Source of the DNA: Hyperoplus lanceolatus
Lineage: Eukaryota; Chordata; Actinopteri; Uranoscopiformes; Ammodytidae
Direction: 5' to 3'
Assembly: GCA_026929865.2 (NCBI GenBank)
Contig: CM049416.1
Span: 23,442,501 to 23,506,500, forward strand
Length of the DNA stretch: 64,000 nucleotides
Shown: positions 21,490 to 31,136 of the stretch, one piece after another
Layout: each line of letters begins with the position of its first letter
Numbering within the stretch: the stretch's first letter is position 1
The notes under the pieces: generated by a model
Told to the model about the DNA's origin: nothing
The model's input: only the letters and a program-made list of their open reading frames with translations
The model's database searches: none
Position numbers and translations under genes: made by a program

Positions 21490-21626
21490 AAGATTTCTGA
21501 TTGGTTGATTAAACTCACGAACCACAAACTGACCAATGGAGAGTGAGCATGTTGAACGTTCGATGCTATAAAACTATTTGATTCTGCGTGTTATTCATCA
21601 ATTGACTTTTCACATCTGTAGTCAAA
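21490..21626 (+). promoter_or_regulatory. Histone-type promoter of the gag-like gene
   Basis: A reverse CCAAT (21500-21504), a forward CCAAT (21533-21537) and TATAAAA (21567-21573) lie 127 to 54 bp before the ATG. The same CCAAT plus TATA layout precedes the H2A and H3 genes in this cluster. Confidence 0.75.
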
Positions 21627-22619
21627 ATGTCTGGACATGACAACCCCGCCGCGGCAGACGCTTGGTTCCGCCCATGGATCGACTCTGAGCCACAGGAAGA
21701 GGCAGCGTGTCCCGCGGCTTCCCCTCCCCGTATGCAGAGGCCGGAGCCCGTTGTCGCAGTGCCCGTCTCAGCCGCCAGACCCCGGACAGTGCTCGGGGCT
21801 CTGATGGAAGAGTTGCCTGGTATCATCGGCAGGATAGCTGCGAGGAATGGGCTCTCTGTCCCGTTGCCTCATGGACGTGACCCGATCTGGCCGCTATTCC
21901 CCGCCATCATACCCTACCTCCAAAAGGCTGGGGCGGAGCCAGGGAGTCTCCAAGCTCCGGTCAAATTGTTCCTGCAGATCAATAAGACGGAGGGTCTGAC
22001 AGACCGCGCGATCAGGGTGGTACCGCCTCTGGATCCGGCTCTCTATGCTGTGTTTGGGGCCCGGCCGGGGCTCAGCGGCCGCCGCCCCGTTCCCAATGAC
22101 CGGCTGACGGCTCGGCTGGCCGACAAGAGCCACCAGTGCCTGGTGCAGCAGCAGGCGGTGATGAATAACATCGCCTTATTGGCCGATTTCATCACCTCCA
22201 TGGCGGCCGAGCCTGACCGATTGGCCGAACGATCGGTAGAACTGGCCAAAGTCGCCGGAGTGATCCTCTGCCTCTGCAGCCTCGGGGCCGTGGCGGCGGC
22301 GCGCGTGGCCGCCTGGCAGCACGTCATCCACCGGAACCTGTGGCTGCGACAGACCCCGGGCCTCCCGGAGCCTCTGGAGAAGCAGCTGCTGTGGAGCCCC
22401 ATCAGCCCGGACGGGCTCTTCGGGCCGCAGCCGGAACTCCGCTTCTGGGCGTACCGGAGTGACGCGGAGAGGTTCCGACAGCACCCCCTTCCACCCCGGC
22501 ATCAGCGCTCCACTGCAGATTGCCGCCGCCGCCGCAGACGGCCCCGGCCCGCCGACGATCCAGGATCATGGAGCAACACTCCCACAGAGCAGCAGAACAA
22601 GAGGAGGAGGAGGCATTGA
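21627..22619 (+). CDS. Gag-like protein expressed as a histone-type gene (330 aa, single exon)
   Basis: An intact 330-codon GC-rich ORF beginning MSGHDNPAAADAWF. It is not a histone. From memory of the family, residues about 130-285 fit the gag-like ORF1 product of DIRS-type (tyrosine-recombinase) retrotransposons: VPPLDPALYAV (132-142), an Ala-rich helical block around ALLADFITSMA (183-193), then HRNLWLRQ (235-242) and SPISPDGLFG (257-266). The related LAP2alpha domain is also held to derive from such a gag. The N-terminal 50 residues are Pro/Ala-rich. The tail is very basic (RRRRRRPRP at 300-308, KRRRRH at 325-330), suggesting nuclear or nucleic-acid binding. No reverse transcriptase, recombinase or LTR lies nearby. 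A TATA/CCAAT promoter precedes it and a histone 3' stem-loop follows 32 nt after the stop. Function unknown; a domesticated gag is my inference. Confidence 0.8.
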   Translation: MSGHDNPAAADAWFRPWIDSEPQEEAACPAASPPRMQRPEPVVAVPVSAARPRTVLGALMEELPGIIGRIAARNGLSVPLPHGRDPIWPLFPAIIPYLQKAGAEPGSLQAPVKLFLQINKTEGLTDRAIRVVPPLDPALYAVFGARPGLSGRRPVPNDRLTARLADKSHQCLVQQQAVMNNIALLADFITSMAAEPDRLAERSVELAKVAGVILCLCSLGAVAAARVAAWQHVIHRNLWLRQTPGLPEPLEKQLLWSPISPDGLFGPQPELRFWAYRSDAERFRQHPLPPRHQRSTADCRRRRRRPRPADDPGSWSNTPTEQQNKRRRRH

Positions 22620-22651
22620 CTCAAAGAGGGAGAAGTGTGTGACACAACAAC

Positions 22652-22667
22652 GGCTCTTTTCAGAGCC
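22652..22667 (+). terminator. Histone 3' stem-loop of the gag-like gene
   Basis: GGCTCTTTTCAGAGCC: a six-pair stem with a TTTC loop, the textbook SLBP-binding site. An AAAG-containing purine stretch (22679-22685) about 12 nt downstream could act as the U7-pairing element. Confidence 0.9.
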
Positions 22668-22829
22668 ACCCATCGCTTTACTAAAGCGCCGCTTCCTTCC
22701 TCCAACTCAGTTTACATCCGAGCCTGTCTGCCGGCAACAACTGACGCACTTCCCTCCGCACACAGGCCACCAATAGACATTCGATTATTGTGCAGGGATT
22801 CTACTCTCGCTATGAAGTCAAAATCATAG

Positions 22830-23949: not shown

Positions 23950-24470
<521 letters not shown>

Positions 24471-24496
24471 AGACCCAACACTTCCAACAACACAAC

Positions 24497-24512
24497 GGTT
24501 CTTTTAAGAGCC
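24497..24512 (+). terminator. H2A histone stem-loop
   Basis: GGTTCTTTTAAGAGCC, with one G-T wobble in the stem and a TTTA loop, 26 nt after the H2A stop. Confidence 0.9.
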
Positions 24513-24529
24513 ACCCACTTCTATCTAAA

Positions 24530-26090
24530 GAGCTATCGCCCAACCTTATATTTTTATCGATACAAATGTATGTTTTTTTATTTTTTTTATTTGGATGAGA
24601 TTAGAATGTAGAACCGTAATTACACTAAGACAAATAATTATCAAAACATACATGGACATAGGAGTGTTGGGGGGAGCATAGAATAATTCAGATTCATAAA
24701 CAAGGCAAAACAATATTCAACAAAAAAGCAGACATAAGGCTGAATGACACTGAGAGCAGGATCCTTAAAGGAAATATAAAATATTATAACATTCTTCATA
24801 TCCACCATCATCTGATCCCTGAAAGTCACAAGCAGTACACGTCTAGCTCATATCAAGGGGAAAATAAAACGATGGCACACGATGAAGTGATAGAAATAAA
24901 CAAATAGGTACATACTATTACAATCTCTTGTAACTTAAAATGTACATGTATTTATGCATACACTCAAATAGTTAGTTTACAAATTCATTTCAATCTATAA
25001 CTATATGTGTCCCACATTTTGCCTTATTTAATGTAACATAATATTTTATTGAAGAGATAATGGCGCATGTACAACTTTAAAACCATGCCTGGAAAAGTCT
25101 GATTATAATTAATACAGATTAAAAAGGAAATTTTATTTCTTAAAACATTCAAAAAAAACAATAAGTTGCCAATGTAAGCTATTGCTTTGAGGATATCCCA
25201 CAATCCTTTGCACTTACCGCTCGCAGATTCAAATTTTAGCGGGATATCAACTGAACGTTATCATATCTCTTCTCCTCTGCCTACCCCTAGATCACCCACC
25301 AAGCCAAGCCCCATCAACTCTACATTTTCCTTTTGTTTCTTTACTCTTGTGCTCCTATGTAAAGCGCTTTGAGTGCAAGAAAAGCGCTATATAAATTGAA
25401 TATATCATTATTATTGTTATTATACATTTTACATTAGAATTATATAGACTTTTTTTGTATATTATTTTGAAGGGAATGTTCTAAACCGGAATTGAAACGT
25501 GTTACAGTGTCTGACTTGATCTCAATCTTTGGACATGACGAAGGGAAAATGGCGGGGCTGCCTGTTCTCTATTACGTCCGCGAAACATTTTCTGATGCCT
25601 TTGTTCCAGTCTGTTGCAATTTACTAGTGTCAATACAGGTTAAATATGTAAAACACATACTGTATGACTTCACTGGTAGGAATATAACTATCCACAATTC
25701 CGATACATTGTAATTTCTTTTATTTTAAGAGGAAAAATTATCATTTCAGCTCCTCCATCATGAATATTGGCTGTTTTTATGGCCTGTTTGGTTTGGGATT
25801 GTTATACAGAGTGAAAATACATTTGAAAACGTCGAAATTAACGTGTATAATAATGTGAGTACATTTGTATTAATACATATAACATAGGATATACAACTGG
25901 CCTTGTTTAATGTAGGTTTAACTATAATAATATTACTGTAGCATGTTATTTTATTGAAGAGATGAAAGCACATGTACAATTTACACATCATGTCTGATAA
26001 ATTCAGATTAAATCGAATAAAAATCAAATAGGAAAGGAATAAACACTTCTAGCAAAGGTCCCCTTGAACAATGAAAGGCTGCCACTGTGA
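24530..26090. other. Spacer between H2A and H4, part of the inverted duplication
   Basis: 24596-25400 recurs inverted at about 42430-43200. 25360-25400 is an L2-like LINE tail (AAAGCGCTTTGAGTGCAAGA). A diverged copy of 25020-25115 reappears at 25895-26020. At 25567-25585 a sequence like the H4 promoter element (TCTATTACGTCCGCG) stands without a gene. Confidence 0.65.
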
Positions 26091-26111
26091 CGCCTCCCAC
26101 CGCAGTTCGCG

Positions 26112-26136
26112 CCCATGTCCTCTATCACGTCCGCAG
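26112..26136 (+). promoter_or_regulatory. H4-specific promoter element
   Basis: A 25-nt sequence containing CCTCTATCACGTCCGCAG. The same 25 nt occurs upstream of the other H4 gene (54811-54835, inverted) at the same distance, about 72 nt, from the ATG. A TTTAAAAG box (26143-26150) follows. The position fits the H4 subtype-specific site known in vertebrates. Confidence 0.7.
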
Positions 26137-26195
26137 ACAGGCTTTAAAAGCTGAGATGCGCAGATATGAATTCATTCGTCTAGTTCGACTCATAA

Positions 26196-26519
<324 letters not shown>

Positions 26520-26547
26520 ACGGGACCGACCATAACAACAACCCAAC

Positions 26548-26563
26548 GGCTCTTTTAAGAGCC
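26548..26563 (+). terminator. H4 histone stem-loop
   Basis: GGCTCTTTTAAGAGCC, six-pair stem with TTTA loop, about 28 nt after the stop. Confidence 0.95.
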
Positions 26564-26589
26564 ACACACTTCATATGAAGAGAATATTC

Positions 26590-27740
26590 CTGTCAACCTA
26601 TAATACAATATTTATCACCATTTATTTAATGTGCCTTCCTGATGAAGTTGGATAATTGGTAAACATAAACAATATACTTGTGTACGTATTTAGAATGATC
26701 CTATTGCACCCCCAAATGTATTAAAAGCTGCACAGAGTAATTATTTTATTTTTATTTAGTGGGTATTTGCTAAACTTTTCAAAGTACTTGCTATAAATAA
26801 ACTATTCTATTGGGATGAGGATGTTTTTATTGGGATATTAGTGAGACTGATTGTATTGGGGCATGTTGTATGAAGGAGATGCTGATTAGTGTATGGGGGT
26901 TTGTTATCTTATTGGGTTCTCTGTTCTTGAACGGCTTTGTCAATATTTGACTATTGTTTGTATATACTTCGGTGCACAAGTAAGCAGAGGCTCAACACTG
27001 ATACATTTATATAAACATTTGAGGATAAGAAGTGGGAAGTAATAAGATGTGGCTTCCTCCTGCTCTTAGGACACTTATCACTGATTCATTTCTTCATAAA
27101 TATTGTTAATGAAGCTTTGTAATGTAATGTTTTGTGTATTAGTATGCTGTCACACTTGCTTTTTACTTTCCATTGTGTATGTTTGTTCGAAATAAAGAAA
27201 CATTTTATCCATGATTTTCTGAGATATTAATTGGAAAATATTAATATCTCAATTGGAAATATTTTTTGTTAATTAAAGTAAAATCTCTATATGTCTAAAT
27301 GTCACCGTGTCAGAGCATCATTCGTATAATTAATTAAAAATATGTTTTGTATTATATAATGAAATAAGATACACCTGTTACCTGCCATCTCATCCTACAG
27401 CACAACAACAGATCACTGCGCTGCTCCTCATAACGTTATACATCCACATATCTTTAATGTAGATGCAAAAACGTAAATAATTTAATAATTGTGGAGAAGG
27501 TTGTTTTTCTACCTGGCAACAACCAATCAGATTCCAGCTCCTGTTGTCAGGCAGAGGAGAGGCTCTTTATTGGCTATAATATATATAATATATATAATAA
27601 GTATTTCACTCTTTCTACATTTCTACAGCGTGTCTCACTAACACACAGTAATTAAGAACCTGTCGATACATGATCAATCTCCGCTTCAGATTTAAAAAAA
27701 TTGCTAAAGACTATAATATGAAGGGCACGTACATCGTATC
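26590..27740. other. AT-rich spacer between H4 and H2B
   Basis: No coding ORF, transposon end or RNA gene recognised. Confidence 0.6.
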
Positions 27741-27764
27741 TGCGCATGCTCAGTCTAGGACACA

Positions 27765-27840
27765 AACAACAGCCAATCCTGAGCGAGCAACAGCACATTC
27801 TAGTTTGCATCAGGCACATATAAATATAGCGCCCCCACGG
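27765..27840 (+). promoter_or_regulatory. H2B promoter with octamer
   Basis: CCAAT (27773-27777), an octamer-like GTTTGCAT (27803-27810; ATGCAAAC on the other strand) and TATAAATA (27819-27826) in the order typical of H2B genes. Confidence 0.8.
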
Positions 27841-27881
27841 CCTTGCTACATTCTAGCCAGTTGATCTTCACTGACTCAATT

Positions 27882-28259
27882 ATGCCAGGAGCAGCAGACC
27901 CCGTCAAAGCGCCCAAGAAGGGCTCCAAGAAAGCCGTTTCTAAAGCTACCAAGACCGGCAAGAAGAGGCGCAAGTCCCGCAAAGAGAGTTACGCCATCTA
28001 CGTGTACAAAGTCCTGAAGCAGGTTCACCCCGATACCGGCATCTCCTCCAAGGCGATGGGCATCATGAACTCTTTCGTGTCCGACATCTTCGAGCGTATT
28101 GCCGGCGAAGCTTCCCGTCTTGCTCATTACAACAAGCGTTCCACCATCACCTCCCGGGAGATTCAGACCGCCGTCCGCCTCCTGCTGCCCGGTGAGCTCG
28201 CCAAGCACGCCGTGTCCGAGGGAACCAAAGCTGTGACCAAGTACACCAGCTCCAAGTAA
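27882..28259 (+). CDS. Histone H2B
   Basis: A core histone of 125 residues. I chose the Met of [19 protein letters not shown] rather than an upstream in-frame Met, because it lies at the usual distance from the TATA box and gives family length. The fold is intact: [59 protein letters not shown] and the C-terminal AVTKYTSSK with the ubiquitin-site lysine. The tail differs from the common vertebrate MPEPAKSAP type, and Ser replaces Asn in FVSDIFER. It is the only H2B in the window. Confidence 0.97.
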
Positions 28260-28284
28260 TCGACTGTTTAACCAACGACACAAC

Positions 28285-28300
28285 GGCTCTTTTAAGAGCC
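28285..28300 (+). terminator. H2B histone stem-loop
   Basis: GGCTCTTTTAAGAGCC about 25 nt after the stop, with a CAAAGAG purine element downstream (28312-28318). Confidence 0.95.
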
Positions 28301-28423
28301 ACCCACATCATCAAAGAGTTACTGCTTCCTTAAACATGAATTACAAAGATAAAATAGTCTATTGTAACTTTAACAAGCGCCACACACTACCACAGTGACC
28401 AACTGCTTTCCTAATGTCTAATC

Positions 28424-30514: not shown

Positions 30515-31009
30515 TCAATATGCTCTCTTCATCCAGATGTAGATGTAGGCTCCCCCCGCCCCGCGGTTCAGATCACCGGGCACTCTCTCCCAGCCGGTAG
30601 CACGCCGGTAGGCCTCTTGGTCTGAATTGGTTGTGACAGAAATGTCCACGATGGGAGTTCCAGAGCCTCTTTGGTACCACAGGTAGATGTAATCGCCGCC
30701 TGCTCCTTTATTGAGATCGTGATAGATCTTGGTGTAGCCTGGGATAATGTTGTTCCTGGTGAATGTGAGACTAAGACTAGTGATGGCCGGGGAGTCTCCT
30801 TTCTTGAACCATAGATAGATATATCTTCCTCCTGCCCCCTTGTTCAGATCAACAGGGATTTTAACGAAACCTCGCGCTCTGAGTCGGTGGTCCCCGTCTG
30901 AACTGACAGACACATCAAGGTCTGTGATGTGTCTGTGTCTGGCATCACCGTGGAGACAACACAGCGCCAGCAGTACGAGGCATGACGTCATCACCAACTC
31001 AAGCGCCAT
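30515..31009 (-). CDS. Small secreted protein with three MABP-like (beta-prism) repeats
   Basis: 164 residues. The chosen Met (MALELVMTSCLVLLALCCLHGDA) has a Kozak GCCATGG and begins a clear signal peptide; an upstream in-frame Met lies beyond a splice acceptor and is rejected. The mature part holds three copies of one motif: DLNKGAGGRYIYLWFKKG, DLNKGAGGDYIYLWYQRG and DLNRGAGGAYIYIWMKRAY. This resembles the MABP domain known from MVB12 and DENND4 proteins, a three-fold beta-prism often linked to membrane binding. An acceptor at 31020 and an upstream non-coding exon (33272 to about 33372) give a two-exon gene; AATAAA lies at 30239-30234. It interrupts the histone cluster and has none of the histone-type signals. 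Function unknown; a secreted lectin-like or membrane-binding role is only a guess. Confidence 0.8.
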   Translation of the reverse strand: MALELVMTSCLVLLALCCLHGDARHRHITDLDVSVSSDGDHRLRARGFVKIPVDLNKGAGGRYIYLWFKKGDSPAITSLSLTFTRNNIIPGYTKIYHDLNKGAGGDYIYLWYQRGSGTPIVDISVTTNSDQEAYRRATGWERVPGDLNRGAGGAYIYIWMKRAY

Positions 31010-31136
31010 GGCGACTACAGCTGTAAGAAAATATGGAGCAAATAAACAAATGCTTTGGAATTCTAAAACAAGTTCTAGAATCCAACCGGGCATTCTGAGA
31101 CATACACATAGAACCCAGTGACATCACATGCTCTCA

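Follow-up and report, generated by a model that had tools for sequence, protein, structure and literature searches.

Histone-type stem-loops in DIRS and Harbinger transposons of Hyperoplus lanceolatus, and a gag gene in a histone cluster that probably descends from one such element

Replication-dependent histone mRNAs are described in PMC12775136 as the unique class of mRNA without a poly(A) tail. Two further reports concern DIRS retrotransposons: the terminal repeats of Dictyostelium DIRS-1 show promoter activity (PMC4482531), and isoforms of LAP2alpha (TMPO) and ZNF451 are domesticated DIRS gag domains of mammals (PMC4495291). In LAP2alpha and ZNF451, gag is an alternative exon of a host gene, whereas the gene analysed here, in which DIRS ORF1 would likewise have become host protein sequence, is a separate gene with histone-type signals. 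This gene lies in the window, by which we mean the whole 64-kb stretch of the H. lanceolatus genome, C22:23442501–23506500, that was analysed. The SLBP/U7 3' end is considered to be exclusive to replication-dependent histone mRNAs. We found no report linking DIRS or Harbinger elements to a histone stem-loop in the open-access literature, a silence that is weak evidence of novelty, because only that literature was covered.

Like a replication-dependent histone gene, the window gene has a CCAAT/TATA promoter, a stem-loop less than 50 nt from its stop codon, an HDE-like element and a position in a histone cluster; unlike such a gene, it codes for a non-histone protein, and its 3' end is transposon-derived. 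Compared with DIRS1-like elements, it has lost the Cys/His part, pol and the repeats. Its relatives elsewhere in the genome share with DIRS1-like retrotransposons the gag homology, reverse transcriptase (RT), RNase H, tyrosine recombinase and both inverted terminal and internal complementary repeats, but they add a histone stem-loop and HDE between gag and RT, as well as an H4-like left end. A second set of elements has the DDE_Tnp_4 transposase and the dispersed copies of PIF/Harbinger transposons and, in addition, a histone stem-loop 20–44 nt past the transposase stop. The explanation that we favour, with a probability of roughly 0.7 for the whole of it, is that the DIRS gag gene is histone-like, that the window gene descends from a fragment of such an element, and that Harbinger elements arrived at the same mimicry independently. 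The evidence for reading these features as histone mimicry is the DNA sequence of one genome.

The window gene has an intact ORF of 330 codons with zero internal stops at 21627–22619 of the plus strand, on which all of its features lie. As the original prediction stated, two CCAAT boxes and a TATA box precede it: the histone-type promoter (21500–21572) has ATTGG at 21500–21504, CCAAT at 21533–21537 and TATAAA at 21567–21572, at −127, −94 and −60 from the ATG, respectively. The stem-loop that had been called, GGCTCTTTTCAGAGCC, is exact at 22652–22667, 32 nt past the stop codon. The pattern is found exactly at nine sites in the window, behind this gene and behind each of the eight histone genes, compared with 0.58 sites expected from shuffles even when two mismatches are allowed. 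The loop is UUUC, as it also is in one of the DIRS copies described below (L009), versus UUUA in all eight histone genes of the window. The Rfam Histone3 model matches at 22647–22691 with 33.4 bits (E 2e-8), which is 0.6 below the gathering score of 34; among the stem-loops behind the eight histone genes, five exceed this cut-off. The product was rightly said not to be a histone, no Pfam match being found for the window protein at E<=10, and the gene does stand at the head of a histone row, with H2A (1.5 kb away), H4 and H2B downstream on the same strand, each with its own stem-loop (24087–28324, plus strand). The cluster also contains, on the minus strand at 30515–31093, a 192-aa ORF with three DLN(K/R)GAGG-Y-IY-W repeats, apparently coding for a secreted protein.

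Protein searches with the window protein returned 15 relatives. Thirteen come from Boreogadus saida or ENA contigs and are 47–70% identical, and the other two, P0010 (ENA) and P0011 (Scortum barcoo), are more distant; the closest annotated proteins are those of B. saida. Two relatives (P0007 and P0001) extend into a region that is common to fish proteins with Pfam RVT_1. One model from Trematomus bernacchii (P0032) combines a gag-like part with RVT_1 and a sub-threshold RT_RNaseH match; P0031 of Champsocephalus esox also has a sub-threshold RT_RNaseH match, and its database name gives a recombinase core-binding domain. The identity of the recombinase in the DIRS copies was assigned from this name together with tblastn using P0031. 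In the genome itself, the window protein is homologous to multicopy gag genes that lie ahead of RT, RNase H and a tyrosine recombinase in elements bounded by inverted terminal repeats, which supports the DIRS gag origin that the original prediction had proposed. The window protein and the open 475-aa gag frame of copy L011 share 52% identity over 315 aa, with homology to the element from about codon 19; the N-terminal Cys/His part is missing from the window protein, as are 21 aa in mid-protein. The window protein keeps the basic tail that had been pointed out, and this is a gag feature (P0004 ends KRRRRK).

That no RT or recombinase lies near the gene had also been stated, correctly. We found that tblastn with 37 proteins, including RT, RNase H and recombinase, matches the window only at 21681–22730, so the 64 kb hold no related pol; the locus is without the RT, RNase H, recombinase or terminal repeats of a DIRS element throughout the 64-kb window. 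Protein, profile and pattern scans found no relatives among viral contigs or genome contigs, and no PDB sequence matched the profile of the window protein. Two structure models of the protein, both of low confidence, gave different top matches: LAP2alpha for the first (2v0x comparison), and another protein for the second, in which LAP2alpha was not favoured.

We searched the genome with the window protein and obtained 41 matches, which by hand count represent 23 places: the window, 18 gag places taken as 10-kb loci (L009–L026, 177 kb) and four weaker ones taken as 4-kb loci (L027–L030). A histone stem-loop follows gag at 11 of the 18 loci, in 11 of 11 cases 38–44 nt past the gag stop, and the RT match, where found, lies beyond the hairpin. 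Of any family, cmscan of the 18 loci reported eight matches above gathering; all are Histone3 and all are at the post-gag hairpin. CTAAAGA, which resembles a histone downstream element, lies 15–20 nt behind the hairpin in ten of the 11 copies, seven of which have it as CTAAAGAG. The DNA similarity between the window gene and the DIRS copies spans 21680 to 22757, through and beyond the stem-loop. The 3' UTR of the window gene (22620–22651) is element-derived, judging from the alignment and an element-like read-through tail, and is 12–15 nt shorter than in the aligned DIRS copies; the stem-loop itself (22652–22667) is at the same place as the hairpin of the 11 copies. Behind it, the HDE-like CTAAAGCG (22681–22688) has one mismatch to CTAAAGAG and is probably weak, and the remaining element-derived flank (22689–22757) extends to the end of the blastn similarity to DIRS copies (L006 and L008 alignments). 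Because DIRS copies in the same genome hold the same stem-loop inside the element, we conclude from the alignments that the stem-loop came with the transposon: it is inherited from a DIRS element, which reverses the account given by the original prediction.

Seven of the 18 loci have no scoring hairpin. L010, L017 and L022 have no match to that region, a deletion in L019 reaches into it, L024 has a stem of six pairs left and an altered loop, and L025 and L026 belong to distant families. In the weaker copies, L027–L030, no hairpin was found after gag. L027, which represents a third, older DIRS subfamily, has two degenerate histone-like hairpins before gag, TTTTCAGAGCCAC twice, 77 nt apart, at plus-strand positions 2808 and 2885 and read on the minus strand; they are uncalled by Rfam. 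L030 (C11:25334516) is a degraded gag fragment roughly 7 kb away from a histone stem-loop at C11:25327747, and its similarity to other DIRS copies (as high as 77%) exceeds that to the window gene (68.5%).

The hairpin is conserved above neutral sites. Between L011 and L013, only 49 of 111 fourfold sites are identical, versus 20 of the 24 nt of the hairpin box; for the window gene and L013 the values are 53 of 110 and 23 of 24, respectively. L011 and L012 have a compensatory stem change, from GGCTCT/AGAGCC to GGCCCT/AGGGCC. Averaged over all pairs of the 11 copies, identity reaches 0.907 in the box and 0.879 in the 25 nt that follow, versus 0.79, 0.817 and 0.753 in the surroundings, a contrast that, taken alone, is modest. 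We read the hairpin as maintained by selection on the DIRS element. Pairing with U7, for which we used the 5' end of human U7, is clear only in L009, L015, L018 and L020 and is weak in the other DIRS copies. For CTAAAGCG of the window gene it is no better than for shuffles (111 of 200 as good), and the window histone genes H3, H3b and H4b likewise fail this test. The read-through tails of three protein relatives (P0005, P0009 and P0014) fit the element 3' region minus about 24 nt, the hairpin. Some relatives thus seem to be hairpin-free, since these tails read across the gag end without the hairpin segment, and it looks as if the hairpin was lost or gained within the family.

The order gag, RT, RNase H, tyrosine recombinase is seen in L011, L012, L013, L015, L016, L018, L019 and L023. 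Self-comparison of L011, L013, L015 and L016 reveals inverted terminal repeats of 158–169 nt (96–98% identity) and internal complementary repeats of 47–57 nt; the family is a canonical DIRS element. Identity between L013 and L016 is 99.06% across 5.6 kb, indicating that the element moved recently. Read-through of the gag stop codon into RT was considered as a general rule and dropped, as the RT match of seven out of nine copies is in the +1 frame relative to gag; L009 has it in the same frame as gag, and L023 in the +2 frame. In L011 (1370–6163), the gag frame reopens past the gag stop for 1122 codons and carries the recombinase, the RT match being in the +1 frame.

Eleven copies have a readable left end; for five of these, the 225 nt upstream of gag were compared with the promoters of the window. 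The DIRS left end and the promoters of H4 and H4b have a block of 18–19 nt in common, for which none of 500 shuffles was as good in L019, L013, L011 and L010; L015 matches weakly, with 15 and 10 of 500 shuffles reaching the same level. The next best gene after the H4s is H2A, with 12–22 of 500 shuffles as good in four copies. CGTCCGC is at −85 to −90 in seven of the 11 copies. The H4 and H4b promoters have it at −80 and −81, and no other window promoter contains it. In L011 and L012, CGTCCGC is at −113, counted from an anchor that is not the start codon, the ATG being 24 nt upstream; L015 and L022 have GCGGACG only. The H4-like block, which we take to be a HINFP site, lies within the DIRS terminal repeat.

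Domestication of the window gene is plausible from its sequence: the gene is single copy and intact, has an omega of 0.33 and has lost the Cys/His part. The strongest competing explanation, which we rate below even odds and yet take seriously, is that the gene is undomesticated, an ordinary recent insertion or a relic that by chance is still open. A codon model of 12 sequences estimated omega at 0.33 for the window path, at 0.137 for internal element branches and at 0.387 for element tips, and fixing omega at 1 on the window path was 8.0 lnL units worse. The excess of 0.33 over 0.137 would fit an undomesticated gene, as would a hairpin just below gathering and a degraded HDE. Such a gene is harder to reconcile with the lack of a close second copy, the next best genomic match being 63% identical, and with the protein tree, where the window gag is placed outside the two subfamilies of this genome and also outside the B. 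saida copies, although the support is weak (66 and 76) and the outgroups are very distant. At 0.1 neutral substitutions per site, about three stops would be expected in the window ORF and the probability of none is 0.04, which, together with the intact promoter elements, also speaks against a chance survivor. The codon model does reject an omega of 1; this is, however, no proof of constraint after capture, because the window path mixes transposon life with host life. The original prediction saw a domesticated gag converted into a histone-like mRNA. The histone-type signals are there, but conversion during domestication is not supported, as the stem-loop and both of its flanks belong to the transposon family. 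If the window gene has a role, it may be interference with related elements, or one in chromatin.

A whole-genome Histone3 search (166,771 candidates) scored at least 75 places, 73 of them above the cut-off. We checked 31 of the 75, hand-picked and not random: four of 11 places of equal score (L031–L034), 12 outside clusters (L035–L046) and 15 mainly within clusters (L047–L061); L062 is the same place as L036. Among the 31 are 17 PIF/Harbinger transposase genes, 11 histone genes, one H2B remnant and two places of an unclassified repeat. The Harbinger genes (L031–L038, L040–L044, L046 and L054–L056) are dispersed and belong to several subfamilies, and seven further places score 38.4 bits like L031–L034. 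DDE_Tnp_4 was matched at about 1e-30 in both loci scanned (L032 and L033), and the 15 others were assigned to Harbinger by similarity. The distance from stop codon to hairpin is 20, 24 or 44 nt, depending on the subfamily, in 13 of 14 elements measured; the end of L040 is broken. L032 and L035 agree in 161 of 246 aa and in 22 of 86 fourfold sites, which is chance level, and in 23 of the 24 nt of the hairpin box. The top Histone3 score of the genome, 42.5 bits, is that of a Harbinger (L044), and four Harbingers have a GAAAGAG downstream element.

We propose that the DIRS gag gene is itself built as a replication-dependent histone gene: the terminal repeat supplies an H4-like promoter, gag is one open frame, and the short 3' UTR behind it contains a stem-loop of SLBP type and a downstream element of U7 type, everything lying ahead of RT. 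From this arrangement we infer S-phase expression, use of SLBP/U7 and control of gag relative to pol, as we infer domestication for the window gene. DIRS RNA would start at the H4-like promoter in S phase, and SLBP/U7 cleavage past the stem-loop would most likely yield an abundant poly(A)-minus gag mRNA. Transcripts that escape cleavage would run through RT, RNase H and recombinase and serve as pol mRNA and genome, in which case the choice of 3' end would set the gag to pol ratio. In Harbinger elements, the same 3' end would confine the transposase to S phase. As Harbinger is an unrelated family with this 3' end, the transposons of this genome would have acquired histone-mRNA mimicry on two or more occasions. 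We think the odds lean somewhat towards the general form of the proposal, a class of histone-mimic transposons from two unrelated orders, with gag or transposase tied to S phase and SLBP/U7, DIRS gag:pol set by 3'-end choice, and histone-type host genes seeded by such elements, the window gene being one.

The hairpin of the transposons might instead serve recoding, packaging or DNA structure and merely resemble a histone 3' end. In DIRS it lies directly after gag, a site where recoding hairpins can lie, but RT is in the +1 frame of gag in the seven of nine copies mentioned above and not in all, and Histone3 reaches its best score in Harbinger, where recoding is unneeded. Another function would also have to account for the fact that hairpin, loop, AC(C/A) flank and stop distance obey the histone rule in two unrelated families, and for the H4-like block at the DIRS left end, an independent histone feature. 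We consider this alternative unlikely and prefer histone mimicry.

In the window gene, only the promoter and start region look host-histone-like, and they are nearest to H2A. For the whole 5' region, none of 300 shuffles was as good as the match to H2A or H2A2, and one of 300 as good as that to H4; H3 versus H2A 5' regions also gave none of 300, so this comparison identifies the promoter class and not the donor gene. For 21566–21640, the shuffles as good out of 500 numbered 0 for H2A2, 1 for H4b, 2 for H2A and 5 for H4, versus 83–246 for six DIRS copies. The leader and first codons (21573–21636) are nearest to H2A and unlike the transposon, with CAAAATGTCTGGAC at 21623–21636 identical in H2A2. 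The H4-type CGTCCGC block of the DIRS elements is absent from the window gene promoter. According to the explanation that we favour, a DIRS fragment would have come to sit behind a host H2A-like promoter in the histone cluster and stayed open, probably under constraint; with the 3' end of its family and the H2A-like promoter, it would make up a complete histone-type gene for a gag protein. The opposite account, along the lines of the original prediction, in which a fragment of gag inserted into a histone gene and gained a host promoter and a host 3' end with its stem-loop, so that histone 5' and 3' parts surround the element fragment, fits the H2A-like leader and start and the resemblance of the hairpin box with its flanks to histone 3' ends, but we dropped it as very improbable, since DIRS copies elsewhere carry the hairpin with alignable DNA on either side, and gene conversion of the hairpin alone by a neighbouring histone gene is made less likely by the UUUC loop, shared with L009 and different from the eight window histones.

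The comparisons suggest that mobile elements of two classes borrow the replication-linked histone expression system of the cell. If this is true, such elements could synchronize gag or transposase with S phase and with the rapid divisions of germ line and embryo, would possess a new means of setting the gag to pol ratio and are predicted to depend on SLBP and on H4 promoter factors; non-histone genes, in turn, would have a route for turning into histone-type genes.

The genome-wide scan yielded two further observations. L039 and L045, which share 90.6% identity across 254 nt, represent a third dispersed repeat that has no clear ORF ahead of a perfect histone stem-loop that is followed by CATTCACT-type repeats. 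The H2B remnant, L047 (C17:23663790), consists of the last 11 codons and has kept a perfect stem-loop and a CAAAGAG element.
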